A stretch of 64,000 bases of DNA from the IMG/VR virus record IMGVR_UViG_3300022752_004829, positions 1 through 64,000 of that record; one strand, 5' to 3'. Numbering within the stretch: the stretch's first letter is position 1; each line of letters starts with the position of its first letter. The notes beneath the pieces were generated by a model. That model saw only the letters and a list, made by a program, of their open reading frames with translations. It made no database searches and was not told where the DNA came from. This document shows positions 11,527 through 38,667 of this stretch, in pieces. The DNA is from a virus. Position numbers and translations under genes: made by a program.

Positions 11527-12519
11527 TTATATATATTCTTTGTTTCCAGAAAAAATTATGTCTACTGGTTCTTGTAAGGCATGATTTAATTGATTTTTAA
11601 TAAAGGATTGCATAGCTTGTAATGTATTAAATTTATATAGATTATTATTTTGAAACAATTTATATGTATGTATTTTTTCAAGAATATCACATTTATTAAT
11701 AATTAACTTAGTGACACCAGAAATTTTAATTGCGTCAATTAGTTTATTTAGATTTAACCAGTTTGCAATTCTGCGTCTTCCAGTAGTTGATCCAAATTCT
11801 TGACCAGCTTCAATTAACATATTTAATTCTGAGTCTTCCCATAAGCTTTCTGGAAATAGCGGATCTACTCCGCTTTTTGTATCATAAATCTTTGCCACGC
11901 CAATAATGTCTCGAATCTTCTTAGGAGAAAAACCTAAAGAGCAGGCGGAATAAGGTAAAGTTTCGCTACTTGTTACATATGGATAGTCTCCATAATTAAT
12001 ATCAAGCCAAAAACTTTGTGCTCCTTCACAAAGAATTTCTCCATAAAGTTCTCCATCCCAAAGATAATTTTTATCAATATAATCTCTTGCAAGCTTTCCG
12101 ACTCTTAACATCTTATCTCCGTAAGCGGGAGCAATGCCTTGACCAGTTGTTCCAAGCTTTTTCTTTAAAACAGCAAGATCATAATTTATATGTTTTTCTG
12201 TAATAATATGAGCTTTTGGACTTACTTTAATTAAAGAAGTGTTGAATCCTTCTTTATTTAAATACTCTATTTCATCAAAAAATTTATCAACATTAATAAC
12301 ACAATTAGGCCCAATAATACTAAGTTTGTTTTGAAAAACTCCGCATGGAATAATATGTGTTTTATATTTTTTCTCTCCTAAATAAACTGTATGTCCAGCA
12401 TTAGGTCCGCCATTCCAGCGACAAACAATATCATAATTTTTGCTAATAGCATTACTTATTTTCCCCTTCCCCTCATCTCCCCAAGCTAAACCAAAGATTA
12501 TATCAATATTTTTAATCAT
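11527..12519 (-). CDS. purA: Adenylosuccinate synthetase
   Basis: Joins IMP and aspartate, using GTP, to give adenylosuccinate, the committed step to AMP. The N-terminal P-loop GLAWGDEGKGK carries the catalytic aspartate (D14) and the second catalytic residue H43 is in NAGHT; STTGRRRIANW and the guanine-recognition NKCD follow. At 330 aa it is short, like archaeal PurA and phage PurZ (cellular bacterial PurA about 430). PurZ enzymes, which make 2-aminoadenine precursors, replace the catalytic Asp with Ser or Gly; here Asp is retained, so ordinary PurA activity is expected. It overlaps the SEC-C gene by 8 nt. It may act after the IMPDH/GMP-reductase family enzyme at 14909-16015. Confidence 0.92.
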   Translation of the reverse strand: MIKNIDIIFGLAWGDEGKGKISNAISKNYDIVCRWNGGPNAGHTVYLGEKKYKTHIIPCGVFQNKLSIIGPNCVINVDKFFDEIEYLNKEGFNTSLIKVSPKAHIITEKHINYDLAVLKKKLGTTGQGIAPAYGDKMLRVGKLARDYIDKNYLWDGELYGEILCEGAQSFWLDINYGDYPYVTSSETLPYSACSLGFSPKKIRDIIGVAKIYDTKSGVDPLFPESLWEDSELNMLIEAGQEFGSTTGRRRIANWLNLNKLIDAIKISGVTKLIINKCDILEKIHTYKLFQNNNLYKFNTLQAMQSFIKNQLNHALQEPVDIIFSGNKEYI

Positions 12520-13010: not shown

Positions 13011-13399
13011 GGGCCTGAATTTGGTTTCGATTTTAGTATTGAGAATTAAAATGCAGGTAGAGGTTTAGGTGGGTCTCTTTAAAAAGCCTTAAAAGTATTA
13101 ACTGCCAAAACAGCCAAATACAAAGGTCATATCTCTGCTAGAGTTTCTCTAGTCGAGGAGACCGTTTCTGTAGCTTAAGTTCTACAGCGTGATTACCGCG
13201 ACGCATCTAACGGATAATTGCGTATTTAGATGTCTTTGCTTATAAAGTTTTTTTATTCTTTATAAGTATAGTATTCAAAATAAAATCGCCAATTATGTCT
13301 GTTTTTCTTCTATAAAAGGTTAAAAATAAGAAAAACTAAACTTGTAGTATTTTAATTCAGATTATCTAGAAGACCTCGGTTCGACCCCGAGCAGGTCCA
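13011..13399 (+). ncRNA. ssrA: tmRNA (one-piece)
   Basis: Rescues stalled ribosomes and tags nascent peptides. The 5' end GGGCCTG pairs with CAGGTCC (13392-13398) to form a 7-bp tRNA-like acceptor stem with a G3-U70 wobble, the alanyl-tRNA synthetase identity element, and discriminator A (13399). A GGTTTCGA segment follows the 5' stem, as in other tmRNAs. The T arm is CTCGG-TTCGACC-CCGAG (13375-13391). The tag reading frame runs 13104-13178 and its stop codon sits in the loop of hairpin CTGTAG/CTACAG (13168-13187), the expected helix 5. A 9-bp hairpin (13239-13266) lies in the pseudoknot region. CCA is not encoded. Length 389 nt is normal. Confidence 0.93.
13104..13178 (+). other. tmRNA tag reading frame, 24 codons
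   Basis: Begins with resume codon GCC and reads AKTAKYKGHI, then SARVSLVE, ETVSVA, stop TAA. The start resembles the A/GKTN type of tag, and the VA end is a degron-like hydrophobic terminus. The stop codon position in the helix 5 loop fixes the frame. At 24 residues it is long compared with the common 10-15. Confidence 0.8.
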
Positions 13400-13431
13400 T
13401 TATATATTTTTTATATATGTAGAAAATTTTC

Positions 13432-14561: not shown

Positions 14562-14919
14562 AATATAGTCTTTTAAAAATACTATACATAATTACACTTA
14601 AGTAGTATATACCAAAGAAAAGATAAAGTTTATTTACATATATTGATATCAAAATATTAACCCAAAAACCTAGACAAAGAGGACAGCTGATTAATTTAAT
14701 AAAAAAATTATTATAAACTGAGCCAATATAAGCTATATATAACTGACCATCATCCACCATTTCTTTATATTTTAAATAATCATTTATTTTAAATAATTTA
14801 TTTAAATATCGAATATGCTTAAAATATTCAACTATTACATTTGTATCATAGAAAATAATACAAATAAATGAATAGATAAAAGAATATTTAATTAAATCTA
14901 TAAAGAAATTACTTTCCAT
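14545..14919 (-). CDS. Membrane protein with CPLCLGFW motif (DUF1360-like)
   Basis: A small membrane protein with about three hydrophobic helices. The motif ISCPLCLGFWVNI matches the C-x-x-C-x-GFW signature of DUF1360, found in phages and sporeformers; function unknown. I chose the ATG at 14919, preceded by GAAGG at an 8-nt spacing and overlapping the end of the IMPDH/GMPR gene by 11 nt; an in-frame ATG five codons upstream (14934) is the alternative. Confidence 0.6.
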   Translation of the reverse strand: MESNFFIDLIKYSFIYSFICIIFYDTNVIVEYFKHIRYLNKLFKINDYLKYKEMVDDGQLYIAYIGSVYNNFFIKLISCPLCLGFWVNILISIYVNKLYLFFGIYYLSVIMYSIFKRLYYAIND

Positions 14920-16015
14920 GTGCAAAACCTTCATACATGCTATTAGTAGTAACTCTTACAGCTTGAATCTTATTTGTCCAGAGACCACCCCTCATATCTT
15001 TAAGATTCCTAAATCCTAAATAACTCATTGCACTTCTTAAGCCATTGGCAAAATCATAAATAACATCTTCTAATGATTTACCTTCAATGATAGGAATCAG
15101 AGTGTTATCGCCTTCAACAAAAAGATTCTTCTTTGTCCCATCATATAATTCATAGTCTTCTACTACGTCTTTGCTTGCCATACCTCGATATTTAGCAAAT
15201 CTCTGACCATTTTTCTCGACTATATCTTCATCATCAATAACGTCTGAGAGCCCAGCAAAAATTCTACCACAGATTACAGCATCGCATCCACTAACGATTG
15301 CTTTTACTAAATCTTTTGGATATCTGATTCCACCATCGGTTAAAATGCTTGGCCTATTAGCTGGATCTGGTTCATTTGAACTGAATAAATCTACTTGGGA
15401 TAGTTCCCAATTTCTTACGGCTTTCCATGCATAATAATTTCCAGTTATACTTGGACATCCTATTCCTGTTTTAACTTGGGTTAAACACATTGAGCCTGGA
15501 CCAATTAAATGTCTAAAACCATCTGCTTTTAAGATCGCTAGTCTATAAACGCTTTGCTTTGTTAATGTATTTCCAACAATAATATCTTGTCGAAATCCTG
15601 CTGTCTTATACCATCTTAGAAAATCCTCAACGTTTTTTGCTAGGCCATTAGCTGTATCTAAAAAATAAATATCTGTATAAGTACTAGTCGCCCTAATCCT
15701 ATCGTCAGCATCTCTTAGGCCTATCGCTGTAATACAAAAATTACTCTCATCCTTAATAAGTTTCGCTTTGGCAGCTTGATCGTCAATAGACATGAATCTA
15801 TGTATTACCCCAGCTCCACCAAGTTTGTTAATTTTAATGCAAGACTTTACAGAGGAGACTGTATCCATTGGAGATAAAATAATTGGAATATTTATTTCAT
15901 AATTTCTAGATATTTTGGTTTTAGTGCAAACTTCTTTTCTAGAGTTAATATCTGAAAAATTTGGTAGCAAAGAAATATCATCGTAACTAAGAGCTTGTTT
16001 AAAATCATTTATCAT
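14909..16015 (-). CDS. IMP dehydrogenase/GMP reductase family enzyme, probably GMP reductase
   Basis: A TIM-barrel purine enzyme of 368 aa with no CBS pair. N-terminal YDDISLLPNFSDINSR, ILSPMDTVSS and the catalytic loop IGPGSMCLTQVKTG (Cys177, Thr179) define the family. GMP reductase converts GMP to IMP; IMP dehydrogenase does the opposite branch, IMP to XMP. By my manual alignment the Arg-Tyr dyad that IMPDH uses to activate water (in RYF before the E-G/A-D segment) is Asn-Leu here (KKNLFVEGDN), and the C terminus (GLRSAMSYLGF, AVRVTTN) is closer to GMP reductase. With PurA nearby, GMP reductase would feed IMP to AMP synthesis. IMPDH remains possible. Confidence 0.75.
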   Translation of the reverse strand: MINDFKQALSYDDISLLPNFSDINSRKEVCTKTKISRNYEINIPIILSPMDTVSSVKSCIKINKLGGAGVIHRFMSIDDQAAKAKLIKDESNFCITAIGLRDADDRIRATSTYTDIYFLDTANGLAKNVEDFLRWYKTAGFRQDIIVGNTLTKQSVYRLAILKADGFRHLIGPGSMCLTQVKTGIGCPSITGNYYAWKAVRNWELSQVDLFSSNEPDPANRPSILTDGGIRYPKDLVKAIVSGCDAVICGRIFAGLSDVIDDEDIVEKNGQRFAKYRGMASKDVVEDYELYDGTKKNLFVEGDNTLIPIIEGKSLEDVIYDFANGLRSAMSYLGFRNLKDMRGGLWTNKIQAVRVTTNSMYEGFAHGK

Positions 16016-24671: not shown

Positions 24672-24784
24672 ATCTTTAGTGTGAATATAAGTTTACAGTA
24701 TTTTTTTAAAATATAAAAGAAAAAATATTGTGTTATTAACAAATAAATAAATCTTAATACATATAGGTGTACGTAATATTTATT

Positions 24785-25067
24785 ATTATCTTCCCAATGA
24801 GCTCCTGCAAAGCGAAGCTTTCCCTGTAATCAGGGTATTTAGAGCTGATTAATTCTTCTTCCCAATTGAGTCCATAAGCCTTTCGGCTTGCCTAGCACTT
24901 ATCGGATGTCGGTAGGATCATCCATCGCGCGCTAGCCCTTCCACCTACACTCCCTTAATTTCTTAAGGTTCCTCGGGTCGCAAGCTTCGTTAGCGTTGCC
25001 CGACGTTTGAATTAATCTAACTCGCTATTTATGTAAATAGCAAAACTTGTGCTTATTTGGCACTATG
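24785..25067 (-). ncRNA. Structured RNA: candidate ncRNA or nrdAB 5' leader
   Basis: About 280 nt without a gene and clearly richer in G+C than its surroundings, transcribed leftward from a strong promoter at 25074-25102. Possible helices (plus coordinates): 8-bp hairpin 25024-25041, CCTTAA/TTAAGG 24953-24968, AAGCC/GGCTT tetraloop 24876-24889, GGATG/CATCC 24904-24923, and a three-way junction closed by AGCTC/GAGCT (24800-24804 with 24842-24846) containing hairpins 24809-24821 and 24822-24835. CTTCCCAAT occurs twice (24790, 24859). The remaining 110 nt to nrdA are AT-rich. No known riboswitch, RNase P or 6S motif is recognised. Confidence 0.65.
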
Positions 25068-25073
25068 TATAGT

Positions 25074-25102
25074 ATCATACTAACTTATTTTTTATTTGTC
25101 AA
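25074..25102 (-). promoter_or_regulatory. Promoter of the structured RNA/nrdAB
   Basis: Minus strand: -35 TTGACA (25102-25097), 17-nt spacer, -10 TATGAT (25079-25074). Predicted start near 25067, 396 nt before the nrdA ATG. Confidence 0.75.
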
Positions 25103-25129: not shown

Positions 25130-25891
25130 ATGTTTAGTATCTATAGTTCGGCCTTTAATCTCATTAATAATAATTTTGATTATACTGAATCTATTAATAA
25201 TTTTTGTAGTTTTGCTGATGAAGTAGTAATAGCAGTAAATAAATCAGAGGATAATACATTTGAATCGTTAAAATCATTAAATTTTCATAATTTAAAATTA
25301 ATTAAAACAAACTTCTCTTATCAAGATCCGTTATTAGATGGTAAAATTAAAAATGAAGCATTACAGAATACGAAAGAAGAATTTAAGATTGGTCTTGATA
25401 TGGATGAATATATTCCATTATGGCAAAAAGATATCTGGACAAATTTAGCCTATCAGTTAAGATTTGATATCTATGATTGCTATATGATACCTTCATTGAA
25501 TCTCTATAAAGATAGAGACAATTATTTTTCAATAGGACATAAATGGTATTTGCACAAAGGTAATCTTTTTAGAGGAGCAGTTAATTTTGCCAAAAATAAA
25601 GACGGAACAGTTGATACCTCAAGGAGTGATACCTGTGAATTGATAGATCTAAATGGAAATTTAGTACAATCTAAAATATTTGACAAAGATATTAATACGC
25701 TAAGATCTAAAATAGCTCCATTCGTAGTTCATAAAGGATATTTAGATTTACAGAATAGAATATTAAGAAACAAAAATTTTTGGAAACAACATTGGAAAAT
25801 TGAGTCTGGAGGTTTTGAGCCAAAGCATAAAGTCCATGAATCACTGGAAGATTTTAATGAGAACTATTATAATCATTTACTAGATATATGA
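25130..25891 (+). CDS. Glycosyltransferase, GT2-like
   Basis: A 253-aa protein in the GT-A fold class: an N-terminal strand (FSIYSSAFNLINNNFDYTES), EVVIAVNKSEDNTFESL, and the DxD-like metal site in FKIGLDMDEYIPLW. It resembles 'glycosyltransferase family 2' proteins of phage and capsule loci. First gene of the glycan operon, leaderless-type start, and a 4-nt overlap with the FkbM methyltransferase gene. Donor and acceptor unknown. Confidence 0.72.
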   Translation: MFSIYSSAFNLINNNFDYTESINNFCSFADEVVIAVNKSEDNTFESLKSLNFHNLKLIKTNFSYQDPLLDGKIKNEALQNTKEEFKIGLDMDEYIPLWQKDIWTNLAYQLRFDIYDCYMIPSLNLYKDRDNYFSIGHKWYLHKGNLFRGAVNFAKNKDGTVDTSRSDTCELIDLNGNLVQSKIFDKDINTLRSKIAPFVVHKGYLDLQNRILRNKNFWKQHWKIESGGFEPKHKVHESLEDFNENYYNHLLDI

Positions 25892-26589
25892 AGAAGTTGC
25901 CTTTATTTAACGACTCAGAAATAGAAGTAGATGATATAATTTACGATCAGATGATCGATCAATGGTATAAGATGGAAGAGTGTATCGAAGAAGCAAAATC
26001 ATCTTATAATTTTTATGATGGCGGTAACTTTTTTGATATAGGTGCTTTTAATGGCATATATAGCTATATATTAGCCCCAAAAGCTAAAAATGATTTCTTT
26101 ATCTCCTTTGAGCCAGATACAAGATTTCTGGATTTAATTAAATATGCTCTAGAAAATCTATCTAGGAAATATAGTAATATTTATCATCAACTTATTGCTA
26201 CCCCAGTTGGAAACGGAGAGAATATAAGTTATAATCTACCTAATCTTGGACCAAATGGTGAAGTTGGTAATCCGTGTTTTTTTGGAGATTCAAATTCAAA
26301 AAATGGCATAAAAACCATAACAATTGATCAATACGTTAATGATACGAATATTATACCTAATATTATTAAAATTGATGTAGAGGGTGCAGAGCTTAATGTT
26401 CTTAATGGCTGTAAAGAGGTACTAACAAAATATAAACCTAAGATAATCCTTGAAATTCATAACGATTATTTAAGAAAAAATTTTAATACCGAGCCAGTAG
26501 AAGTAATAAATTTCATAGAAAAATTTAATTATAAAGAGAATTTAAATGCAAAAAATCAAAAAGTACAAAAAATATTATATTTTGAATAA
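25888..26589 (+). CDS. FkbM-family SAM methyltransferase
   Basis: A 233-aa class I methyltransferase. The SAM site reads FFDIGAFNGIYSYILA, then SFEPDTRFLDLIKYAL; IIKIDVEGAELNVLNGC is the FkbM hallmark. FkbM enzymes O-methylate sugars and polyketides; here a sugar hydroxyl of the phage-directed glycan is likely. Coupled by 4-nt and 1-nt overlaps to flanking glycosyltransferase genes. Confidence 0.85.
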   Translation: MKKLPLFNDSEIEVDDIIYDQMIDQWYKMEECIEEAKSSYNFYDGGNFFDIGAFNGIYSYILAPKAKNDFFISFEPDTRFLDLIKYALENLSRKYSNIYHQLIATPVGNGENISYNLPNLGPNGEVGNPCFFGDSNSKNGIKTITIDQYVNDTNIIPNIIKIDVEGAELNVLNGCKEVLTKYKPKIILEIHNDYLRKNFNTEPVEVINFIEKFNYKENLNAKNQKVQKILYFE

Positions 26590-27602
26590 TGAAAATAGCT
26601 TTAATAGGTAATGATTATGTTCAGCAATTTCCATTAGAAAATTATGGTGGAATTGAGACTTGTGTTGAAAATTTAGCGCAAGGTTTATACGATAATAAAA
26701 ATGATTTTTTTGTTGTTTGTCCTAAAAGAAAAAATAAGAAAGAATATCCTTTTGATATCTATGAGACAGAAGAACAGCCTACATCAATAACGAATAAGAA
26801 TAGTTCTTATTACGCCTATTCTGTAGCTAAGATTTTAAAAAACTTAGAATTTGATATAATTTGGAGTCAAAGTAATTGGAGTATAGATCCATTATTATCA
26901 TTAAAAAAACCAATTATATGTACGTTTCATGATAGTTGTGAAAAACAATATGGGTGGATGAAAGATTTAGATAGAGTAAAATATAGATTTATTTCTAATT
27001 TTCAATACAATAACTGGGTCAAAGAAGGATGGGAAAAGCAAAAAAGTTTTATGTGTTACACTGGTCTTTCTAATTCAGAATTTAAATTAAATAAATCTAA
27101 GAAAGATTATTTCTTATGGTGTGCTGGATTAAACTGGGGTCTAAACGCAAAAGGTTTAGATGTTTTTATAAAATTATCTGAAATTTTTAAGAATAAAAAT
27201 TTTATCGCATATGGGGCAGGAAATAAACAGCTGGAAGAATATCTTTTAAATAAAAATCAAACAAATTCTAATTTTTTATTTAAAGGTAAATTAAATAGAG
27301 GAGAAGAACATGAAATAGTTTTCTCGAATGCCAAAGCTTTCTTTTTCCCAACTAGACTACCAGAAGCATTCGGAAGAACAATTATCGAAAGCTTTTCTAA
27401 AGGAACACCTGTTTATGGATCAAGAAATGGCGCATCAGAAGAATTAATAGAAGATAATATAAATGGACTAAAATTTGATTTAGATAATATCAATATAAAT
27501 TTAGATATTAATTTCGATTATTCCAATATATTTAATATGTCAAAAAAATTTCATATAGGAAATGAGATAGAGAAACTTTTACAAGAATCTAGAGACTTAT
27601 GA
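26589..27602 (+). CDS. Glycosyltransferase, GT4 family
   Basis: A 337-aa GT-B enzyme. N-terminal PLENYGGIETCVENLAQGLY is the usual GT4 acceptor-domain glycine loop; the C-terminal nucleotide-sugar site is RLPEAFGRTIIESFSKGTPV with the E-x7-E pattern, followed by GSRNGASEELIEDNINGL. It transfers a sugar with retention from an NDP or GDP donor. Next gene overlaps by 4 nt. Confidence 0.85.
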   Translation: MKIALIGNDYVQQFPLENYGGIETCVENLAQGLYDNKNDFFVVCPKRKNKKEYPFDIYETEEQPTSITNKNSSYYAYSVAKILKNLEFDIIWSQSNWSIDPLLSLKKPIICTFHDSCEKQYGWMKDLDRVKYRFISNFQYNNWVKEGWEKQKSFMCYTGLSNSEFKLNKSKKDYFLWCAGLNWGLNAKGLDVFIKLSEIFKNKNFIAYGAGNKQLEEYLLNKNQTNSNFLFKGKLNRGEEHEIVFSNAKAFFFPTRLPEAFGRTIIESFSKGTPVYGSRNGASEELIEDNINGLKFDLDNININLDINFDYSNIFNMSKKFHIGNEIEKLLQESRDL

Positions 27603-28303
27603 AAATATTAGAAAATGTTACTCTTTTAACAATAATGGGCAATCCAAAGCCATCGTTCAAAGAAAACTATAATTTGATGGACAAAATAATAGATAGATCA
27701 TATAGCGAGCTAAGATTTAATAGTATAAAGATACTATCCGCGCAGGATGAAGATTTTGATTTTAAAAACAAGAATGTATCAATTATAAAAATTAATCCTA
27801 TGTCACAAGCAGGATATAATGCTTTTTGCATAAATCATTTATATAAATATGTAGACACAGACTTTGTTCTACTTTTTCAGAATGATGGGTTTATTTTAAA
27901 TCCAAAACATTGGTCAGATGACTTCTTAAATTATGATTATATCGGAGCCCCATGGCCAAGTTATGAGAATTCTAGAGTAGGAAATGGAGGATTTTCTTTG
28001 AGAAGCAAAAAGTTTCTAAATGCGGTTAAAAATTTAGTTTATATAGATGGTATAGGTTTGTCTGGAGGAGAGTTTACTCCAGAAGATCATCTGCTATGTA
28101 GACATTATTATGATTACCTAATTAAATTAGGTATAAAATTTGCACCAATTGATATAGCTATTAGATTCTCTTTTGAACAAGCAATACAAGAATATCCATT
28201 TTGGAATAATGATATGTCTTTAGGATTTCATGGTTTATTTCAAAGTGGATGGGATAATGATGAATTTAGAATTAATTTAAAAAAAGAATATAATCTATTA
28301 TGA
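27599..28303 (+). CDS. DUF5672 family protein (putative glycosyltransferase)
   Basis: A 234-aa protein with the DUF5672 signature: FVLLFQNDGFILNPKHWSDD, YDYIGAPWP, VGNGGFSLRSKKFL and LSGGEFTPEDHLLC. DUF5672 occurs in bacterial and phage polysaccharide loci and looks like a GT-A-like transferase with an ND/DxD-type metal site. Function not proven biochemically to my knowledge. Confidence 0.75.
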   Translation: MKILENVTLLTIMGNPKPSFKENYNLMDKIIDRSYSELRFNSIKILSAQDEDFDFKNKNVSIIKINPMSQAGYNAFCINHLYKYVDTDFVLLFQNDGFILNPKHWSDDFLNYDYIGAPWPSYENSRVGNGGFSLRSKKFLNAVKNLVYIDGIGLSGGEFTPEDHLLCRHYYDYLIKLGIKFAPIDIAIRFSFEQAIQEYPFWNNDMSLGFHGLFQSGWDNDEFRINLKKEYNLL

Positions 28304-29268
28304 AAGTAGCGTTTTTTAATCATCAATTATGTATAAGAGGATCTACTGTGTCTTTATATAATTATGCGTTAGCTAATCAAACACTATTAGGCAATGAATC
28401 AATTATTGTATATATGACTGATCCAGATAATCTTCCTCACACAGATTCTACAGTATTAGAAAAGTTTAATAAAACATTTAAAACTAGGGGGTTTGATAAT
28501 TGGGAAACATTAGATCAATACCTAAAAGAAGAAAAAGTTGATGTACTCTTTAAGAGTTGCGGTGGGTGGAACGATGGTAAAGTAAGTAAACATGCAAAAA
28601 CGTGCGTTCAAGCAATTTTTGATATATATCAACCACACGGAGACGTTTACTCATATCTTCATGAATATATGTCAAATAAGATGACTAGCGGAAAGGCCCC
28701 ATATGTTTATGGTATATGCGACTATCTGCCAGAGTCTAATTTAAATTTAAGAAAGATTTATAATATTCCATCTAGCGCAAAAGTCTTTGGTAGAATTGGA
28801 GCGAAAGATTCATTTAATGTAGATTGTGCAAAACATGCAATTATAGATTTAGTCAATAATACAGAAGATGTTTATTTTATGTTTTTTGGTACAGATTCTT
28901 TTTATGAACATCCTAGAATTATATACTTACCAAAGTCTCATGAATATCAAGATAAATCAAATTTTGTAAATGCTTGTGATGCAATGCTTCATGCAAGAAT
29001 AGATGGAGAAATTTTTAGTTTATCTATATCAGAATTTTTATGGTTTGATAAACCAATTATTACATATCATATAGGACATCAAACTGGACATTTTGAAATT
29101 CTAAAAGATAAAGCTATAATTTATAAAGATAAAGAATCTTTATGCTCTATTATTAAAAATTTTAATAAAAATAATTATCCTAAAAATTACTATAAATCAA
29201 TTATAATAGATAATGGATTTACGACAGAAAAAGTAATGCAAAAATTTAAAGAAGTTTATTTAAGTTAA
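28300..29268 (+). CDS. Glycosyltransferase, GT4-like
   Basis: A 322-aa GT-B-like protein. N-terminal FFNHQLCIRGSTVSLYNYAL resembles the acceptor domain of GT4 enzymes; the C-terminal half contains VFGRIGAKDSF, CDAMLHARIDGEIFSLSISE and KPIITYHIGHQTGHFEIL, equivalent to the donor-binding loop. The E-x7-E is modified. Overlaps neighbours by 1-4 nt. Confidence 0.68.
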   Translation: MKVAFFNHQLCIRGSTVSLYNYALANQTLLGNESIIVYMTDPDNLPHTDSTVLEKFNKTFKTRGFDNWETLDQYLKEEKVDVLFKSCGGWNDGKVSKHAKTCVQAIFDIYQPHGDVYSYLHEYMSNKMTSGKAPYVYGICDYLPESNLNLRKIYNIPSSAKVFGRIGAKDSFNVDCAKHAIIDLVNNTEDVYFMFFGTDSFYEHPRIIYLPKSHEYQDKSNFVNACDAMLHARIDGEIFSLSISEFLWFDKPIITYHIGHQTGHFEILKDKAIIYKDKESLCSIIKNFNKNNYPKNYYKSIIIDNGFTTEKVMQKFKEVYLS

Positions 29269-30068
29269 TGAATCTTATAATAGATAGATCAAATCGTTTA
29301 GCAAATGAATGGTGCTGGGAATGGCATTATATTATGAATATTTTTAGAGAATTAGAGAAAAATGAGTCAAATAATTATCAATATATATTTACAGATAATT
29401 TAGAAAAACTTCCAGTAGAACCAACTAAAAATACAGTAGTTTTTATTGTTTCCGATGAACATTATACTATTCCAAAATATACAGAAAAAGTTAAAGCTAT
29501 TTTTAAAAATTATGTTTTTCCAGAACAAGAGGGTTTAAGTATATACCCTATTCCCCAAGGTCATAATAAAGATTTAATTTTTTATCCTTACAAAAATATA
29601 GAAGAAAAAACCTATGATATAGGTTTTCAAGGTAATTTTCATACATCTAGACCAATAGTTATTAAAGGTATTCTTGAAGAAATAAATAAAAGAAATTTAA
29701 AATTAAATATTTTATTAAATCAAAGCTCAAATGCATTTGATTATTCTAATAATCTGTGGAATACAAAAATATCATTATCATTAGATGGCCAAGTAACACC
29801 AGAAAATTTTAGATTTTTTGAATCAAGTATCTTAGGATGCGCAATTATTGCTTCAAATAATTTACCTAAGAATTGGATATATGATCAGAATCATTATATC
29901 AAAGTAGATTGGATGAATCCCAAACAGGTTGTAGATAATATAGAAAATTTATTAAAAAACATAGATTTATTAAAAAAATTTTCTAAAGAATCTTATAATG
30001 CATGGAATAATATCTATAATCCTAAAAACGTATCGGACTATATAAAGAATAAATTAAATCAATTATGA
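29268..30068 (+). CDS. Putative glycosyltransferase (exostosin-like), paralog 1
   Basis: A 266-aa protein. KISLSLDGQVTPENFRFFES followed by GCAIIASNNLPKNW matches the donor-binding end of exostosin-like/GT-B transferases. It shares order and motifs (DEHY-x-IP near the N terminus; (C)LDG-x-TPE-x-(Y/F)RF-x-ES) with the protein at 30636-31463, so the two are paralogs, separated by a methyltransferase gene. Confidence 0.6.
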   Translation: MNLIIDRSNRLANEWCWEWHYIMNIFRELEKNESNNYQYIFTDNLEKLPVEPTKNTVVFIVSDEHYTIPKYTEKVKAIFKNYVFPEQEGLSIYPIPQGHNKDLIFYPYKNIEEKTYDIGFQGNFHTSRPIVIKGILEEINKRNLKLNILLNQSSNAFDYSNNLWNTKISLSLDGQVTPENFRFFESSILGCAIIASNNLPKNWIYDQNHYIKVDWMNPKQVVDNIENLLKNIDLLKKFSKESYNAWNNIYNPKNVSDYIKNKLNQL

Positions 30069-30664
30069 AAAATAAAATAAAAGATATATTATTAGAATAT
30101 GGACATAAAGGTATTTTTACACACGATGGACATTTTCAATGTTTAACAGATAAAGCAGCAAGATCATCTCAAGTTGGGCATTCATATGATCATGTATACC
30201 CAGATTTGTTAAATAAATTTCTTGGATTAGAAAAATTTACTATGTTTGAAATCGGTATTCATAAAGGATATAGCTTAGAAATGTGGACAAAAATATTTCC
30301 TCAAGCAGATATTTATGGATTGGATATTGATCATTCTTTAATCGATCCTTATGCTAACCTAAATCAAAAGAATATTACTATCCTCCCTCAAGCAAGTCAA
30401 ATAGACACAAATATTTTAAACTTAATACCCAATATGGATCTAATAATAGATGATGCATCTCATAGACCCGATCTAACTATGCGCTCATGGGAAATTTTTA
30501 AACATAAATTAAATAAAAATGGACTATATATTATTGAAGATGTACCAGATACAATTTTCAATGAACAAGTTTTCCCGAAATCTTTTAAAGATAATTTTAA
30601 ATTAATAGATTTAAGATCTGTAAAAAACAGAAGCGATGACATTATTTTATATTATGAGAATTAA
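30065..30664 (+). CDS. Class I SAM methyltransferase (sugar O-methyltransferase-like)
   Basis: A 199-aa methyltransferase: MFEIGIHKGYSLEMWTKIFP is the SAM loop, IYGLDIDHSLIDP the acidic loop, and MDLIIDDASHRPDLTMRSWE the catalytic/metal DD-x-SH region of the Methyltransf_24/macrolide sugar O-methyltransferase group. Probably methylates a sugar in the glycan. It overlaps the next gene by 29 nt. Confidence 0.72.
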   Translation: MKNKIKDILLEYGHKGIFTHDGHFQCLTDKAARSSQVGHSYDHVYPDLLNKFLGLEKFTMFEIGIHKGYSLEMWTKIFPQADIYGLDIDHSLIDPYANLNQKNITILPQASQIDTNILNLIPNMDLIIDDASHRPDLTMRSWEIFKHKLNKNGLYIIEDVPDTIFNEQVFPKSFKDNFKLIDLRSVKNRSDDIILYYEN

Positions 30665-31463
30665 ATACTCAATCCAAGAAAACCCAAAAATTACAAGCCA
30701 ATTTAATAATTTTCCATTTGGATGTGGAGAAATAAAATACTTCATAGATATATGTAGAGAAATTCAATCTATAAAAAATATAGATAATACAGTTTGGTAT
30801 GTTGACCCAGATTATAACTATCAAAATCCACCAGATGGTTTATGTAAAGAAGATATAGTCTTTTATAAAGGAGACGAACATTATAGAATTCCTTCTTGGT
30901 ATAAAGACTGCAAATTAATTTTAAAACATACAGTTAGAAATAATTTTCCAGAAAATATTATACATATACCATTTTTATATACCTCAGATTTTATAGAATT
31001 CCCATATGTTCCATTTAATGATAGAAAAATAGATATATTTTTTACTGGAACTTGTTGGCCAGAAACAAACAGAAGATTTATTCTAGAATATCTAAAGTCA
31101 AAATTAAAAAAAGTAAATTTTATTCTTGGTGATTTTATTAATCCGAAAGAATATTATTATATTTTAGCTAATACTAAAATCTCTTTATGCTTAGATGGAA
31201 AATGGACTCCAGAGTGCTATAGATTTTCAGAATCCGTACAAGCAGGCTCATTAGCTTTCTCATCTAATTTATCCTATTCAAGACTATTTGATAATTGTCC
31301 ATATATAGAAACTAACTGGTCAAATCTTGATCAAGTCATAGATCAAATATATTTTTATTTAAATAATAAAAATTCTGAAGAAATTTCAATTCAGGCTCAT
31401 AACTTTTGGTTGAATAATTGGCATCCTAAAAAATGGGCAGAATTAATTCTAGCTAGGATTTAA
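30636..31463 (+). CDS. Putative glycosyltransferase (exostosin-like), paralog 2
   Basis: A 275-aa paralog of the protein at 29268-30068: GDEHYRIPSWY, ISLCLDGKWTPECYRFSESV and the ending WHPKKWAELILARI align with it. The N terminus as given overlaps the methyltransferase by 29 nt; an ATG at 30654 (MRIKYSIQEN) would shorten the overlap and is equally plausible. Confidence 0.6.
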   Translation: MTLFYIMRIKYSIQENPKITSQFNNFPFGCGEIKYFIDICREIQSIKNIDNTVWYVDPDYNYQNPPDGLCKEDIVFYKGDEHYRIPSWYKDCKLILKHTVRNNFPENIIHIPFLYTSDFIEFPYVPFNDRKIDIFFTGTCWPETNRRFILEYLKSKLKKVNFILGDFINPKEYYYILANTKISLCLDGKWTPECYRFSESVQAGSLAFSSNLSYSRLFDNCPYIETNWSNLDQVIDQIYFYLNNKNSEEISIQAHNFWLNNWHPKKWAELILARI

Positions 31464-32413
31464 TGATAATAGCCAAGACACCATTTAGGATTTCACTGGC
31501 TGGAGGATCTACAGATCTTGAATCTTTTTTAGATTTATATGGGCAAGGGTCTGTCATAAGTTTTCCATGTAATCTTTATACCTATATATCAATTTTTGAT
31601 GATAAATTAGGTTTTAATTCTTATGATAAGAAATATATAGTTGCATATTCTAAAAGAGAAGCGACCAATCAAGTAGATAAGATAAAGAATGATATTGCAA
31701 GAATTATTCTAAAGAAATATAATATCGCTCCAATTAATGCTACATTTAATTCTGATATATTTAGTTCAAACTGTGGGCTGGCTTCATCTAGTTCTTATAC
31801 ATTATCATTTTTAAATGCTATTTTAAAATTCAAAGGATTAGATTACTCTAATATAGATTTATGTAAAGAGGCTTTAGCCATAGAAAGAGAATTCAACCCA
31901 TTAACTGGACAGCAAGATATTTTTGGATGTGGTATAGGTGGATTCAAAAAGATGGATTTTTTTAAAGAGAAGAATCCAACATTTAAATATCTCAACGCAG
32001 ATATGTTTAATAGATATGATTTTAGTTTAATATATACAGGGGTATTGAGATCTTCAACTAAAATATTAAAAGAAATAGACCCAAGGAAATCATTTTCTTT
32101 ACTTAATTTGGTACAGGAAATGGAAATAGCCATAGAAAAAAATAGACATAAAGATTTTATCTCTATAATAAAAGAGGGTTGGGTAAAAAAGAAAGAATCA
32201 AATCCAAATATTGTATCTAATAAAATAATTAAAAAAATTGATGAAGACCTATCAAATGATAAATCTATTTTAGCTCATAGATTATGTGGAGCAGGAAATG
32301 GTGGATATTTTTTAGCTATAAAAGAGAAAAGATCAAAAATAAATTTGAATACTAAGTCTAATATTATTAATATACTTTATGATAAAGAAGGACCAAGGTG
32401 CTACAGGATTTAA
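31463..32413 (+). CDS. hddA: GHMP kinase, D-glycero-D-manno-heptose 7-phosphate kinase-like
   Basis: Phosphorylates a sugar phosphate at the anomeric carbon. The GHMP motifs are AKTPFRISLAGGSTDLESFL (motif 1), CGLASSSSYTLSFLNAI (motif 2, ATP loop) and HRLCGAGNGGYFLAI (motif 3). The N terminus (PFR(I/V)S-x-x-GGGTD) and the adjacent gmhA and nucleotidyltransferase genes point to HddA, which makes heptose 1,7-bisphosphate in GDP-heptose pathways; fucose or mannose kinases of the same family are alternatives. 316 aa, close to HddA (about 340). Overlaps gmhA by 35 nt. Confidence 0.8.
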   Translation: MIIAKTPFRISLAGGSTDLESFLDLYGQGSVISFPCNLYTYISIFDDKLGFNSYDKKYIVAYSKREATNQVDKIKNDIARIILKKYNIAPINATFNSDIFSSNCGLASSSSYTLSFLNAILKFKGLDYSNIDLCKEALAIEREFNPLTGQQDIFGCGIGGFKKMDFFKEKNPTFKYLNADMFNRYDFSLIYTGVLRSSTKILKEIDPRKSFSLLNLVQEMEIAIEKNRHKDFISIIKEGWVKKKESNPNIVSNKIIKKIDEDLSNDKSILAHRLCGAGNGGYFLAIKEKRSKINLNTKSNIINILYDKEGPRCYRI

Positions 32414-32927
32414 AAATAGCATTGATTTGATTAGTAGACTTATAGCTAAAATAACTAATGCAGATTTAGTTAAATTCAGAGAAATAATATTTGATTATGA
32501 TAATATTATTATTATAGGAAATGGCGGAAGCAATTCAATATCTAGTCATATAGCTGTAGATTATAATAAATTTCTTAAGAAGAGAACATTAGCATTTACT
32601 GATCCATCAATGCTTAGTGCATACTTTAATGATTATGGTTTTGAAAAAGTATACGTTAAGTTTATCGAGCAGAATTTAACCAAAAAAACATTGGTGATAT
32701 TAATATCTTCTTCTGGAAATTCTTTAAATATTTTAGAATGTGCTAATTTCTGCGAAAAAAATAAAATAGGATTCTGCTCTTTTACTGGTTTTAATAAAGA
32801 TAATAAACTTAAAGTAAAATCAGAAAAATCTAAGAATTGCAAATTTAATTATTGGGTCGAATCAAAAAGCTATGGAGTAGTAGAAAATTGTCATCAAATA
32901 TTTTTGCATGCGGTTGTCGTAAATTAA
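32379..32927 (+). CDS. gmhA: Sedoheptulose-7-phosphate isomerase (SIS domain)
   Basis: Converts sedoheptulose 7-phosphate to D-glycero-D-manno-heptose 7-phosphate. The SIS fold shows IIIGNGGSNSISSHIAVDYN, LVILISSSGNSLNILECANF (phosphate loop SSSGNS) and VVENCHQIFLHAVV, whose Glu and His match the GmhA active site. 182 aa, near the usual 190. It overlaps the kinase gene by 35 nt, and the next gene follows after 1 nt. Confidence 0.85.
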   Translation: MIKKDQGATGFKNSIDLISRLIAKITNADLVKFREIIFDYDNIIIIGNGGSNSISSHIAVDYNKFLKKRTLAFTDPSMLSAYFNDYGFEKVYVKFIEQNLTKKTLVILISSSGNSLNILECANFCEKNKIGFCSFTGFNKDNKLKVKSEKSKNCKFNYWVESKSYGVVENCHQIFLHAVVVN

Positions 32928-32928
32928 T

Positions 32929-34257
32929 ATGAGATATTGCTTAGATTTAGATAATACAATTTGTATAACCGAGAAGAGTGATTATAATAACTCGAAATTA
33001 ATAGAAAAAGCTAAGACCTTAATTAATAAACTATACGATAATGGAAATTATATTATTATAAATACAGCAAGAGGTGCGTCTTCTGGTATAGATTGGACGG
33101 ATTTTACTAAGAAACAATTAATAGATTGGGGAATTAAATATCATGAGCTTATTATGAATGCAAAGCCTAATGCAGATATATTCGTTGATGATAAAAATAT
33201 TTCTATAGAAGAATGGTATAATTCCGATAAATCTCCAAAAGGATTTATAGCTGGCACATTCGATCTTATACATAATGGATACATTAAACTTTTTGAATTT
33301 GCAAAACAACATTGTAATAAACTAATTGTAGCAATTCATGAAGATCCATCTTTAGAAAAGAAAGAGAAAAGCAAGCCTATTCATAGTATAGAAGAAAGAA
33401 TTGAGATTTTAAAGTCAATTAAGTATATAGACGATATCTTAATATATCAAACAGAAGAAGATTTATACGAATTAATAAAATTAATGAAACCTAGCATAAG
33501 ATTTTTGGATGAAACATATAAAAATAAGAAAATAACTGGAGAAAATCTATGCCCAATTATGTTTCATGAGAGAAAACATAATTATTCTTATACAAATTTA
33601 AAAAATAAAATTTTTGGTGATGAAGCTTTATCAAATAAAATTAATCAAATTATTTTAGACTTAGTAGAAAAAGATAATGCTAATATTGATCTTCCGAATC
33701 CATTACCTAATGAAATTTTAATAAATTCTTTTATAGATACGGCAATTTCTAATATTACCATTAAAAATGGTTTAGTATTAGAATTTGGAGTTTATCAAGG
33801 AAGAACGATAAACTATATTGCTTCAAAATTCCCAGATAATATAATATATGGATTTGATTCATTCGAAGGTCTTCCAGAGCAATGGAATGATAAGAATCCA
33901 AAAGGAATATATACATTGGATGGTAACTTGCCTAAAGTCGAAAAAAACGTTAAATTAATTAAAGGATGGTTTAACGAAACTTTACCTACTTTTGTAGCGG
34001 AGCATAAAGACCCAATTTCCCTACTGCACGTAGATTGTGATATTTATTCTTCTACAGTATGCGTTTTAGAATCATTAAAAGATCAAATTATTGATGGAAC
34101 AGTAGTTATATTCGATGAAATTTGGAAATATCCAAATTATAAAGAACACGAGATAAAGGCTTTTGCAGAATTTCTTTTGAAATATGATTTTAAATATGAA
34201 TGCATCAGAACACTTAAATCAAGATACGCAAAAGCTATATTTATATTAAAAAAATGA
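32929..34257 (+). CDS. Three-domain fusion: HAD phosphatase, cytidylyltransferase-like, SAM methyltransferase
   Basis: A 442-aa protein. Residues 1-97 form a small HAD phosphatase of the EcbF/BcbF capsule type (LDLDNTI 5-11, INTARG 44-49, DIFVDDKN 83-90). Residues 104-225 are a nucleotidyltransferase (GTFDLIHNGYIKLF 109-122; HSIEERIEIL 152-161), with H-x-G-Y instead of H-x-G-H, a variant I recall in a bacterial cytidylyltransferase subgroup. Residues 260-442 are a TylF/macrocin-type O-methyltransferase (LEFGVYQGRTI, DSFEGLPEQW, VDCDIYSST). With HddA and GmhA it could complete NDP-heptose synthesis: the HAD would remove the 7-phosphate and the transferase add the nucleotide. Substrates are inferred. 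Confidence 0.8.
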   Translation: MRYCLDLDNTICITEKSDYNNSKLIEKAKTLINKLYDNGNYIIINTARGASSGIDWTDFTKKQLIDWGIKYHELIMNAKPNADIFVDDKNISIEEWYNSDKSPKGFIAGTFDLIHNGYIKLFEFAKQHCNKLIVAIHEDPSLEKKEKSKPIHSIEERIEILKSIKYIDDILIYQTEEDLYELIKLMKPSIRFLDETYKNKKITGENLCPIMFHERKHNYSYTNLKNKIFGDEALSNKINQIILDLVEKDNANIDLPNPLPNEILINSFIDTAISNITIKNGLVLEFGVYQGRTINYIASKFPDNIIYGFDSFEGLPEQWNDKNPKGIYTLDGNLPKVEKNVKLIKGWFNETLPTFVAEHKDPISLLHVDCDIYSSTVCVLESLKDQIIDGTVVIFDEIWKYPNYKEHEIKAFAEFLLKYDFKYECIRTLKSRYAKAIFILKK

Positions 34258-35144
34258 AAACTAAAGTAATCGTAACAGGCGGATGTGGCTTTATAGGAAG
34301 TCATGTAGTAGATCTATTAATAGAAAAGAATTTCGATGTGCATGTAGTAGATAATATTTCTACTTCAAAAAATAATAAATATATACATCAAGATGCTGTG
34401 TACTTGAACCTAGATATAACTCAAAATGTTGAAAAATTAAAAGAAGTATTTAACGGAGCTAAGTATATATTTCATTTAGCAGCTTTTGCGAGAGTAATTC
34501 CATCTATACACGATCCAGTTACTTTTCATAATATAAACGTTAATGGATCTTTAAATGTTTTCTTAGCGGCGAAAGAAGTTGGGGCAAAAATTATATTTTC
34601 TTCTTCATCATCAGTATATGGAAATCCAATAGAATTACCAGTAAAAGAAACTCATAGACTAGACCCAATGTGTCCATATGCACTTCATAAGCAAATAGGC
34701 GAAGAATATCTTCAATTATTTAATAAAATCTATTCTCTAAATAGTGTTTCTTTACGATATTTTAATGTCTTTGGAGAGAGAGCCCCAAGAGAAGGAGCTT
34801 ATGTTCCAGTAGTTGGAATATTTTTAAGGCAAAAAGAAGCTGGTGAATCACTAACTATAGTTGGTGATGGACTCCAAAATAGAGACTTCGTTCACGCAAA
34901 AGATGTAGCTAGAGCAAATTTAGCCGCAGCTTTAGATGAAAGAAGCGGGGCATTTGCATATAATGTTGGTTCTGGTAAATCATTATCGGTAATAGAAATA
35001 GCAGATAAAATATCAAAAAATATAGTCCATATACCAGAAAGATTTGAATACAAAAGCGCAAGAAGCGATGTTACTAAAATTAAAAAAGAATTAGGCTGGG
35101 AATATGAAATTGAATTAATGCAATGGCTTGAGAAATACGTATGA
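34254..35144 (+). CDS. NAD-dependent nucleotide-sugar epimerase/dehydratase (extended SDR)
   Basis: A 296-aa SDR: VTGGCGFIGSHVVDLLIEKN (NAD site), SSSSSVYGNPIELPV, catalytic Y-x3-K in PYALHKQIGEEY, RYFNVFGERAP and RDFVHAKDVARANL. The pattern is that of GalE-like UDP-sugar 4-epimerases; other NDP-sugar reactions (dehydratase, reductase) cannot be excluded. Overlaps the methyltransferase fusion and the GT17 gene by 4 nt each. Confidence 0.82.
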   Translation: MKTKVIVTGGCGFIGSHVVDLLIEKNFDVHVVDNISTSKNNKYIHQDAVYLNLDITQNVEKLKEVFNGAKYIFHLAAFARVIPSIHDPVTFHNINVNGSLNVFLAAKEVGAKIIFSSSSSVYGNPIELPVKETHRLDPMCPYALHKQIGEEYLQLFNKIYSLNSVSLRYFNVFGERAPREGAYVPVVGIFLRQKEAGESLTIVGDGLQNRDFVHAKDVARANLAAALDERSGAFAYNVGSGKSLSVIEIADKISKNIVHIPERFEYKSARSDVTKIKKELGWEYEIELMQWLEKYV

Positions 35145-35914
35145 AAATAATTGATTGTTTTCTTTTCTCAAATGAATTAGATATACTTGAGATTCGTCTA
35201 AATGAATTAAATGATAAAGTAGATAAATTCCTTATCTGTGAATCAAAAGAGACTTTTGCAGGAAATTCGAAAGAACTTATATATGAAAAAAATAAAAATA
35301 GATTCTATCAATTTAATGAAAAGATTATTCATATAATAGTTGATAAATTTCCGCAAAATATTTCAGCCGAAAATAGAGAATATTTTAATAGAAATTATAT
35401 TTTAAATGGTATACCAAACTCATTTACTGATGAAGATATAATTATATTCTCAGATGTAGATGAAATTCCTAAAATAAACAATCTCAATAAATCCTTAGAT
35501 CTTTCTGTTTTTAGGCAAGATATGTATTATTTTAATTTCAATACTAAATTTATAGAACCAAATGATCACGCTAATTGGCATGGCTCAATAGCATTCAAAG
35601 CTAAATTTAAAAGTCAAGTAAATTTACAAAACCTTAGATTTAATAGATACAATATAAATACAGTAGTACAAGATGGTGGATGGCATTTTTCTTACTTTAG
35701 TAATCCACAGAATGTTATCAATAAAATTAAAAATGGAGGGCATACGGAAATGTTTGATTTAAGTCTAAACGAGAATATAATTGCGGAAAGAATTGAGAAA
35801 AGAATTGATGTTCTTGGCAGAACTGGTTATATATTAAAAGGAATAGAAAATAATAAAGATTTACCAAAATATGTCTTAGACAATAAAGAAAAGTATAGAC
35901 ATCTATTTTACTAA
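35141..35914 (+). CDS. GT17-family glycosyltransferase (beta-1,4-GlcNAc transferase-like)
   Basis: A 257-aa protein with the GT17 signature: IIDCFLFSNELDILEIRLNE, DKFLICESKETFAG, IIIFSDVDEIPK (DxD-type metal site), and GGWHFSYFSNPQNVINKIKN. GT17 is best known from eukaryotic N-glycan GlcNAc-transferase III; bacterial and phage members occur in polysaccharide loci. Acceptor unknown. Confidence 0.8.
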   Translation: MKIIDCFLFSNELDILEIRLNELNDKVDKFLICESKETFAGNSKELIYEKNKNRFYQFNEKIIHIIVDKFPQNISAENREYFNRNYILNGIPNSFTDEDIIIFSDVDEIPKINNLNKSLDLSVFRQDMYYFNFNTKFIEPNDHANWHGSIAFKAKFKSQVNLQNLRFNRYNINTVVQDGGWHFSYFSNPQNVINKIKNGGHTEMFDLSLNENIIAERIEKRIDVLGRTGYILKGIENNKDLPKYVLDNKEKYRHLFY

Positions 35915-35935
35915 TAGATATTATATTAAATAAAA

Positions 35936-36934
35936 ATGAATAAAAAACTTTTAATAACTGGCGGTGCAGGAATGATAGGATCGGTATTAGCTAGATTTTT
36001 TATTGATAAAAAATATCAAGTTATTGTTCTGGACGATTTAAGCGGTGGGTTTATAGAGAATATTCCCCAACAAGCAAAATTTTATTTAGGTAATATTTGT
36101 GACCAAAATTTTATTAATAAAATCTTTGAAATTGAAAAACCACATTTTGTAATTCATTGCGCGGCTTATGCAGCTGAAATACTTAGCCCTTTTATAAGAA
36201 ACTATAATTATCAAAATAATCTAATTGGATCAATAAATATTATCAATGCATGCATTAATAATGATGTTGACAAAATTATTAATTTTTCTAGTTTTGCTAC
36301 TTATGGAGAAGGTAAACCGCCATTCAAGGAATCAGATCAAAGAGATCCGAAAGATTGTTATGGAATAGCTAAATTAGCCGTAGAGATGGACTTGAAAGAG
36401 GCGCATGAGCATTTTGGATTAAGGTATTCGACAATACTCCCGCATAATGTAGTTTCTAAATATCAAAATTATTGGGATAGGTATAGGAATGCAATAGCTA
36501 TATGGATTAGACAATGTTCACTTGGCGAAGATATAACTATATATGGAGATGGTTTACAAACAAGAGCTTTTTCTGATTGTAAATATTTATGCGAACCAAT
36601 TGAAAAATTACTTTATTCTTTTGATAATAATTTTTACAATATTGGATCAGATAATCCAATTACAATTAAAGACGCAGCGGAGTTAGTATTAAAAGTGGGA
36701 ACAGAGTTTGGGTTCAATAAATCTAAGTTAGTTTTTCTTGAGAAAAGGAAAGAAGTAATCCATGCATATTGCGACCATGAAAAAGCCAAAAAAGATTTAA
36801 ATTTCGATGATCATACCAATTTAGAATCTCTGATAAAGGATATGTATAGTCATTATCTCATTTTTCCAGAAAAAAAAGTTGAATATATGAAATATGAAAT
36901 AGAAAAAAATATGTATAGTTTTTGGAAAAAATAA
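35936..36934 (+). CDS. NAD-dependent nucleotide-sugar epimerase/dehydratase
   Basis: A second extended SDR, 332 aa: ITGGAGMIGSVLARFFIDKK, HCAAYAAEILSPF, SSFATYGEGKPPF, catalytic Y-x3-K in DCYGIAKLAVEMD and ITIYGDGLQTRAFSD. Resembles NDP-hexose 4-epimerases; the exact substrate is unknown. A 21-nt gap separates it from the GT17 gene. The C terminus extends past the fold with a charged helix. Confidence 0.8.
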   Translation: MNKKLLITGGAGMIGSVLARFFIDKKYQVIVLDDLSGGFIENIPQQAKFYLGNICDQNFINKIFEIEKPHFVIHCAAYAAEILSPFIRNYNYQNNLIGSINIINACINNDVDKIINFSSFATYGEGKPPFKESDQRDPKDCYGIAKLAVEMDLKEAHEHFGLRYSTILPHNVVSKYQNYWDRYRNAIAIWIRQCSLGEDITIYGDGLQTRAFSDCKYLCEPIEKLLYSFDNNFYNIGSDNPITIKDAAELVLKVGTEFGFNKSKLVFLEKRKEVIHAYCDHEKAKKDLNFDDHTNLESLIKDMYSHYLIFPEKKVEYMKYEIEKNMYSFWKK

Positions 36935-36935
36935 T

Positions 36936-37586
36936 ATGAAATTTGAAAATACAGATCTTGTCATTGCTAGATACAATGAAGATGTAGATTGGATTAAATC
37001 TGAATATTCTAGGATTTTTATTTATAATAAAGGACAACATCTAAACAGAAAGGATGAAATATCTTTACCTAATATAGGAAGAGAATCTCAAACATATTTG
37101 CATCATATTGTAGAAAATTTTAATAACTTAAATAATATAACAATATTTACCCAAGGAAATCCAGATGTTCATTATTTTCATAATAGACATTATAATGAAG
37201 AATATTTTTTTGAAATGAAAAAACAAGCAGAAATATATGGCTATTCTTTAAATAAAGATTACTATCCAAATGTTATGTTTGGTGGATACAAAGATGGAAA
37301 TTATAGAGATCATCACCCAACGCTTAGAGATCCAAATATACCGTTATCTAGATTTGCGACTATAGGTAAATTTCACGAATATATTTTTGGAAAATCATTT
37401 GATCAGTATAAATGGTATGCGAATGGAATATTCGCTATATCGAAAGAAAAAATTTTATCAAGAAGCATAGATTTTTATAAAAAAATTCTACTAGACGAAG
37501 AACAATTTTATATATCAGGAGAACTAGGCTCTTACTTAGAGAGGACTTGGACCTTAATATTCAATATTCCAGACAATGAAGTATGA
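36936..37586 (+). CDS. DUF3431 family protein
   Basis: A 216-aa protein of the DUF3431 type: LVIARYNEDVDWIKSEYSRI, IYNKG, LPNIGRESQTYLHHIVENFN, TIFTQGNP and the C-terminal ANGIFAISKEKILSR. DUF3431 proteins are uncharacterised and look GT-A-like; they occur in fungi, bacteria and phages beside glycosyltransferases. It overlaps the glf gene by 11 nt. Confidence 0.75.
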   Translation: MKFENTDLVIARYNEDVDWIKSEYSRIFIYNKGQHLNRKDEISLPNIGRESQTYLHHIVENFNNLNNITIFTQGNPDVHYFHNRHYNEEYFFEMKKQAEIYGYSLNKDYYPNVMFGGYKDGNYRDHHPTLRDPNIPLSRFATIGKFHEYIFGKSFDQYKWYANGIFAISKEKILSRSIDFYKKILLDEEQFYISGELGSYLERTWTLIFNIPDNEV

Positions 37587-38667
37587 TTTTCTAATAGTTG
37601 GATGTGGTCTATTTGGAGTAACATTCGCCCAGCAAGCAAAAGAAAAGGGCAAGAGATCCTTAATCATTGATTCCAGAAACCATATTGGTGGAAATGTTTA
37701 CACAGAGAATAAAGATGGTATTAATATTCATACTTATGGCGCACATATATTTCATACGAATAATGATGAAATATGGAATTATATAAATAAATTTACAAAA
37801 TTTAACCACTTTGTCAACAGGCCTAAAGTAAACTACAAAGATAAAATTTATTCATTTCCAATTAACTTATTTACCTTATATCAACTCTGGGGAGTAAAAA
37901 ATCCAGAAGAAGCCAAAATAAAATTAGAGTCTGTAAAAGTAAAGATTCAAGAGCCAAAGAATCTCGAAGAATGGATACTATCGCAAGTCGGAGAAGAGAT
38001 TTATTATACCTTTATTTATGGATACACAAAAAAGCAATGGAATAAAGAACCCAAAGATCTTCCTTCCTTTATTATAAAAAGATTACCGATTAGATTGAAT
38101 TTTGATGATAATTACTTTTTTGATAAATATCAAGGTATTCCAATTGGAGGATATACAAAAATTATAGAAAATATGACAGAAGGAATAGAAGTAATATTAA
38201 ATGAAAATTATTTTGATAGGAGAGATTACTGGGATCAAAAAGCTAAAAAAATTATTTTTACTGGTAAGATAGATGAATTTTATAATTATAAATATGGAGA
38301 ATTAGAGTATAGATCTTTAAAATTTGAGGAAATTAGATTAGATATAAAAGACTATCAAGGTAATTCATGCGTTAACTATACAGACGAAAATATCCCATAC
38401 ACAAGAATAATAGAACATAAACATTTTGAGTTCGGACAACAAGACCTGACCTATATCACTAAAGAATATCCAGCAAATTATATTAAAGAATTAAATACGC
38501 CATACTATCCGATAAATAATGATGTAAATAATGATTTATATAAAAAATATAGACAAATGAGCGAAAAGGAGAATAATATATTATTCGGAGGTAGATTAGC
38601 TGAATATAGATATTATGATATGCACCAAATCATCGGATCAGCATTACAAAAAAGCAAAATCATATAA
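37576..38667 (+). CDS. glf: UDP-galactopyranose mutase
   Basis: A 363-aa flavoenzyme interconverting UDP-galactopyranose and UDP-galactofuranose. The FAD motif GCGLFGVTFAQQAKEKG is at the N terminus, followed by RNHIGGNVYTE, HTYGAHIFHT, FVNRPKVNY, GYTKKQWNKEP and PIGGYTKIIENM, all family hallmarks. Length is normal. It indicates galactofuranose in the glycan. It abuts the GMD-like gene with a 1-nt overlap. Confidence 0.95.
   Translation: MKYDFLIVGCGLFGVTFAQQAKEKGKRSLIIDSRNHIGGNVYTENKDGINIHTYGAHIFHTNNDEIWNYINKFTKFNHFVNRPKVNYKDKIYSFPINLFTLYQLWGVKNPEEAKIKLESVKVKIQEPKNLEEWILSQVGEEIYYTFIYGYTKKQWNKEPKDLPSFIIKRLPIRLNFDDNYFFDKYQGIPIGGYTKIIENMTEGIEVILNENYFDRRDYWDQKAKKIIFTGKIDEFYNYKYGELEYRSLKFEEIRLDIKDYQGNSCVNYTDENIPYTRIIEHKHFEFGQQDLTYITKEYPANYIKELNTPYYPINNDVNNDLYKKYRQMSEKENNILFGGRLAEYRYYDMHQIIGSALQKSKII

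Follow-up and report, generated by a model that had tools for sequence, protein, structure and literature searches.

A structured non-coding RNA gene with two matching 3' repeats in a clade of tmRNA-bearing aquatic phages

Small RNAs of the CsrB/RsmZ type sequester proteins by means of repeated identical sites for one partner. GOLLD and ROOL are two orphan RNAs that are not known to have a function. They are described as large, ornate, structured non-coding RNAs of phage or environmental origin (PMC12286853). The RNA family reported here appears to be undescribed; the broad class of orphan phage RNAs to which it belongs is known already. The representative RNA lies in a window of 64,000 nucleotides (the whole stretch of DNA that was analysed), which is part of an IMG/VR virus record of 83,358 bases.

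A first-pass annotation of the window had singled out positions 24785-25067 as a gene-free, G+C-rich and stably folding stretch located between a strong promoter and nrdA. This description agrees with our analysis. The G+C content of the stretch is 0.47-0.50 (140-nt windows, 24820-25029), compared with 0.17-0.30 around it, and its minus strand contains no open reading frame of at least 40 aa. The minimum free energy of the minus strand has a z-score of -4.46 relative to dinucleotide shuffles, none of 100 shuffles being equally stable; the z-score of the plus strand is -2.95. The promoter is found directly upstream of the RNA, and the nrdA (24671-22410) and nrdB (22406-21342) genes follow downstream on the same strand. 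TTGACA and a -10-like hexamer immediately precede the conserved ACATAG 5' end in those copies of types B and D (defined below) for which upstream sequence is available, and also in most type A relatives. The 5' end of the RNA is near 25066-25068; its extent is approximate and derives from sequence comparison. The features of the locus are listed in Table 1.

Table 1. Features of the RNA gene and of the region upstream of nrdA, in window coordinates.
Feature	Position	Strand	Evidence
Sigma-70 type promoter of the RNA gene, TTGACA-17-TATGAT	25074..25102	-	11 of 12 consensus matches
Structured non-coding RNA, ~280 nt	24789..25068 (approximate mature extent)	-	conservation, covariation, minimum free energy, model R2 match
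P1 hairpin, 7-nt loop	25049..25063	-	among the best covarying helices (unsupervised B/D scan); in type A by inspection
P2 hairpin	25024..25041	-	type A: pairing in 100% of cells; two pairs changed on both sides
P3 5' strand, long-range helix closing the core	25009..25023	-	7 of 14 pairs with compensatory change
P3 3' strand	24842..24855	-	same P3 evidence, 7 of 14 pairs compensatory
P4 hairpin (CGGG-CAACGC..GCGA-CCCG)	24974..25002	-	covaries in type A; outer and inner stems in B/D
P5 hairpin	24953..24968	-	3 of 6 pairs with double changes
Pseudoknot strand GUAGG, upstream of P6	24944..24948	-	pairs with 24912-24916; covaries in B/D
Pseudoknot strand CCUAC, P6b loop	24912..24916	-	pairs with 24944-24948
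P6 stem (24929-24935 with 24892-24898) carrying P6b (24904-24923)	24892..24935	-	compensatory changes in A and B/D
P7 hairpin	24878..24887	-	type A: one covarying pair; B/D: 6 of 8 pairs covary
P8 hairpin	24822..24835	-	type A alignment, one-sided changes only
P9 hairpin	24809..24821	-	nearly invariant in type A, so that covariation is uninformative
Putative recognition repeat R1 (GGACUCAAUUGGGAAGA)	24857..24873	-	same Y sequence (see text) as repeat R2 in all 92 records; one extra A and different letters before UCA
Putative recognition repeat R2 (GGAGCUCAUUGGGAAGA)	24789..24805	-	same Y sequence (see text) as repeat R1 in all 92 records
Separate conserved block upstream of nrdA and belonging to it (TACAC..TGTTAATAA..TGTAA)	24691..24772	-	conserved upstream of nrdA

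The RNA could not be assigned to a known class in the first-pass annotation, and the same holds for Rfam 15, whose only matches to the window at the gathering score are a tmRNA and one tRNA, both outside the RNA. When nine loci of types B, C and D were searched at this score, tmRNA was again the only family to match. A permissive scan of the window RNA (E up to 10) returned only chance-level matches, and such scans of single copies of types A-D yielded chance-level matches or none. The RNA has neither the tRNA-like ends nor the tag reading frame of a tmRNA, and both ARAGORN and Rfam place a tmRNA at 13011-13402 only. No description of the family was found in open-access PMC papers; an unindexed description is possible because the coverage of Rfam and of the open-access literature is incomplete.

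The tmRNA gene of the phage (plus strand) encodes an unusual 24-residue tag, AKTAKYKGHISARVSLVEETVSVA; the tags of related phages have SVA or IAA as their last residues. In L167 (record G040), which is more distantly related, a second copy of the terminal GGCGGCGGGGTTCGA sequence of the tmRNA gene flanks an insert at the end of this gene that looks like an endonuclease gene. A tRNA-Ser gene with anticodon ACT is located at 10186-10275 (minus strand).

A scan for NrdA relatives produced 80 viral contigs, and relatives of the RNA itself were found in about 80 IMG/VR contigs. Type A comprises 16 loci with an RNA 72-84% identical to that of the window and located upstream of nrdA. Diverged versions occur upstream of nrdA in five loci (type B; L004, L005, L023, L036 and L058) and, in another form, in L013 only (type C). 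A covariance model built from type A (model R1) gives weak but full-length matches in a further group, type D, where the RNA is consistently located downstream of nrdB and on the other strand; the type D phages have no RNA upstream of nrdA. Pattern scans of IMG/VR yielded 22 stretches of type A and 57 of type B/D. A second covariance model (model R2), built from types B and D only, scores 46.2 bits (E 3.5e-10) on the window RNA, over 24854-25006, the next match in the window having 11.5 bits. It also matches two other type A records and type C (26.8 bits, E 4.7e-5). Since a model without type A and C sequences recognizes the RNAs of both, types A, B, C and D constitute one family.

By hand count, a copy of the RNA is present in 57 of the 68 contigs with NrdA at least 87% identical (16 of type A, 5 of B, 1 of C and 35 of D); none of the remaining 11 is longer than about 52 kb. 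Records that were searched whole have one convincing copy each. Model R2 gave no convincing match in 12 contigs at 78-80% NrdA identity, and a copy beside the tmRNA, sought in this clade in L167, was not seen there. In blastn searches of 50,697 phage records, neither the RNA of the window nor those of type D had a homolog, so at blastn sensitivity the isolated phages of this set lack the RNA. A pattern match in a Rhodoluna MAG (L104) was taken as chance, as models R1 and R2 both find no RNA there. The family belongs to a clade of aquatic phages that carry a tmRNA, and at least 57 of the 68 contigs of this NrdA-defined clade contain the well-supported orphan RNA gene.

The predicted fold starts with hairpins P1 and P2, continues with the long-range helix P3 that encloses P4, P5, P6 with P6b, P7 and repeat R1, and ends with P8, P9 and repeat R2. 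Alignment of related phages, proposed in the first-pass annotation as a check of the RNA, revealed strong covariation both in type A and in types B/D. Among the 16 sequences of type A, pairing is kept in 98.1% of cells, and changes on both sides occur in 18 of the 58 pairs (57 cells), a level reached by 0 of 500 shuffles, with at most 3 pairs when the partner strand is slid. In the 24 B/D sequences, 94.2% of cells pair and 21 of the 37 pairs (125 cells) covary, compared with 3 to 9 pairs in slid controls; because the helices were first read from the same alignments, the slid and shuffled controls somewhat favour them, a weakness from which the cross-type match of model R2 to the window is free. 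In an unsupervised column-pair scan of the B/D alignment, the highest ranks went to P6b, P7, P1, P4 and P6, and the pseudoknot was among the top nine helices.

Two pairs of the pseudoknot are among the 21 covarying B/D pairs. The interacting strands read GUAGG/CCUAC in type A, GUAGCU/AGCUAC, GUGGAU/AUCCAC or GUGGCU/AGCCAC in type D, and GUAGUU/AACUAC in type C. Within type A the pairs hardly vary, and support for the pseudoknot there is conservation; the covariation comes from B/D. From the three-way junction proposed earlier at 24800-24846, hairpins P8 and P9 are retained. Its closing stem was rejected: no compensatory change supports it in 16 relatives, and it competes with P3, a helix with seven covarying pairs. 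Sequence comparison strongly supports a specific fold, as predicted from these alignments.

The duplicated CTTCCCAAT of the first-pass annotation is present as well; it reads ATTGGGAAG on the RNA strand and forms part of two 3' repeats with the general formula GAN(N)UCA(A)-Y, where Y is a sequence of ~9 nt. Repeat R1 has one extra A relative to repeat R2, and the letters before UCA also differ between them. The Y sequence is UUGGGAAGU and its variants in type A, AAGAAAAGU in types B/D and GGGAAAAAG in type C. It occurs in nine variants and is identical in the two repeats of each record (34 of 34 in type A, 57 of 57 in B/D and 1 of 1 in type C). When repeat R2 was shuffled among the 34 type A records, irrespective of their relatedness, the mean number of identical pairs was 13.3 and the maximum 20, compared with 34 observed. 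In B/D the lockstep concerns a single C/T position, because the search pattern fixed the rest of Y; this position is changed in both copies in 12 of the 57 records. Overlapping or near-identical sequences are frequent among the 92 records, hence the independent Y changes are fewer than the records: by inspection, type A has about five of them and B/D a few.

The simplest reading of this lockstep would be that one external partner reads both copies of the repeat. Short-tract homogenisation by recombination could also keep the repeats identical; it is less likely because the differences just outside Y stay constant. Pairing of the Y tails inside the RNA was considered and rejected, as no type A column complements the Y changes in a plausible helix. 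That the two repeats always change together suggests a free-acting RNA with a partner rather than an nrdA switch, and provides a direct, testable handle on this partner.

The partner could be a nucleic acid target, of phage or host origin, with which the identical Y tails of an antisense RNA would base-pair. The tails are the same within a record and differ between records, as target-matching seeds would. However, complementary sites do not recur in the available flanks of the A or B/D loci or in the window, a search of the tmRNA for pairing with Y found no type-specific site, and the excess of type A 9-mer complements over a reversed control consists of scattered sites. We consider the antisense role unlikely. 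The repeats might also be cleavage or joining sites, used by the RNA itself or by one nuclease, in a ribozyme or processed RNA. The compact pseudoknotted core and the position of the two identical site-like repeats, which flank about 50-80 nt, would suit such a role, but an internal guide covarying with Y is absent, and none of the Rfam models of known catalytic cores (self-cleaving ribozymes, self-splicing introns) matches. As far as catalysis can be judged from sequence, this explanation is distinctly improbable.

The first-pass annotation had left two readings, a free non-coding RNA and a cis-regulatory leader responding to a nucleotide or cofactor. A leader or riboswitch of nrdAB has in its favour that the RNA precedes nrdA on the same strand, both in the window and in types A, B and C. 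This position is not constant: in 35 of the 57 RNA-carrying NrdA contigs the RNA is elsewhere, mostly on the strand opposite to nrdA and often beside the tmRNA, and in most carriers it is found either beyond nrdB, on the opposite strand, or outside the range of nrdA. In L011, an ORF of 371 aa separates the RNA from nrdA. Moreover, nrdA has a conserved upstream block of its own in every type, whether or not an RNA precedes the gene, and no riboswitch class among the Rfam models matches the RNA. A leader function for nrdA is therefore very doubtful, although occasional transcriptional read-through may take place. The nrdA block is conserved in all phages compared; within it, TACAC is accompanied by TGTTAATAA or TGTGAATAA, which resembles a DnaA box, and by TGTAATAT, which resembles an extended -10 element.

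The free RNA, by comparison, is favoured by the covariation, by the constant promoter directly upstream and by the variable neighbourhoods. Neighbouring protein genes vary among the loci compared, and none of them is constantly adjacent to the RNA. The type D copies are divergent from the phage tmRNA gene in a head-to-head orientation, mostly within about 110-300 nt, at nearly every locus whose sequence includes the tmRNA. That the stretch acts as DNA, as an origin, packaging or recombination site, is hardly credible: its position differs among related genomes and it contains direct repeats, but the compensatory changes, including G-U intermediates, follow a pseudoknotted RNA fold, and the directly adjacent consensus promoter is kept. 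With its own promoter, no ORF, covariation beyond chance and a varied gene context, the element has the sequence characteristics of a free-standing structured non-coding RNA.

In the window, a long island of genes that by eye resemble those for glycosyltransferases, methyltransferases and sugar-nucleotide enzymes (25130-39812, plus strand) starts beside the RNA gene and is oriented away from it. Two further genes identified by eye on the minus strand are similar to adenylosuccinate synthetase (PurA/PurZ; 11527-12519) and IMP dehydrogenase (14909-16015); they may indicate altered purine metabolism or modified DNA.

We propose that the element is probably a free-standing phage RNA that acts in trans, as a scaffold or decoy with two sites for one partner. 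Host RNA polymerase would synthesize it early in infection from the sigma-70-like promoter. A single partner in trans, either a protein or a second RNA and derived from the phage or the host, would then read both copies of Y, and because both copies would be read by the same partner, the RNA could serve it as a two-site scaffold or decoy. The role is perhaps connected with translation or ribosome rescue, for which the head-to-head arrangement of type D copies with the tmRNA gives a hint. More tentatively, the family might represent a phage RNA machine of a new class, in which a pseudoknotted RNA presents one recognition element in two copies, co-evolves with a fast-changing partner and seizes or guards a host or phage factor early in infection, possibly in translation or ribosome rescue.

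Among the described systems, GOLLD and ROOL are similar to this family in being large, ornate, structured non-coding RNAs of phage or environmental origin. They extend over several hundred nucleotides, whereas the RNA described here has about 280-320 nt, two 3' repeats that change in lockstep and, in the scans made here, no match to an Rfam model. The tmRNA (RF00023) is found in the same phages, is likewise a pseudoknotted RNA gene, and in type D is the head-to-head neighbour; however, it is a separate gene, and our RNA does not match the tmRNA model. With nrd leader elements and riboswitches the window RNA shares the location upstream of nrdA, to which it is unlinked in most relatives. The resemblance to the CsrB/RsmZ type is one of principle only, namely the use of repeated identical sites; in contrast to those RNAs, the phage RNA has only two copies and a large conserved core, and its tail motif differs from phage to phage.
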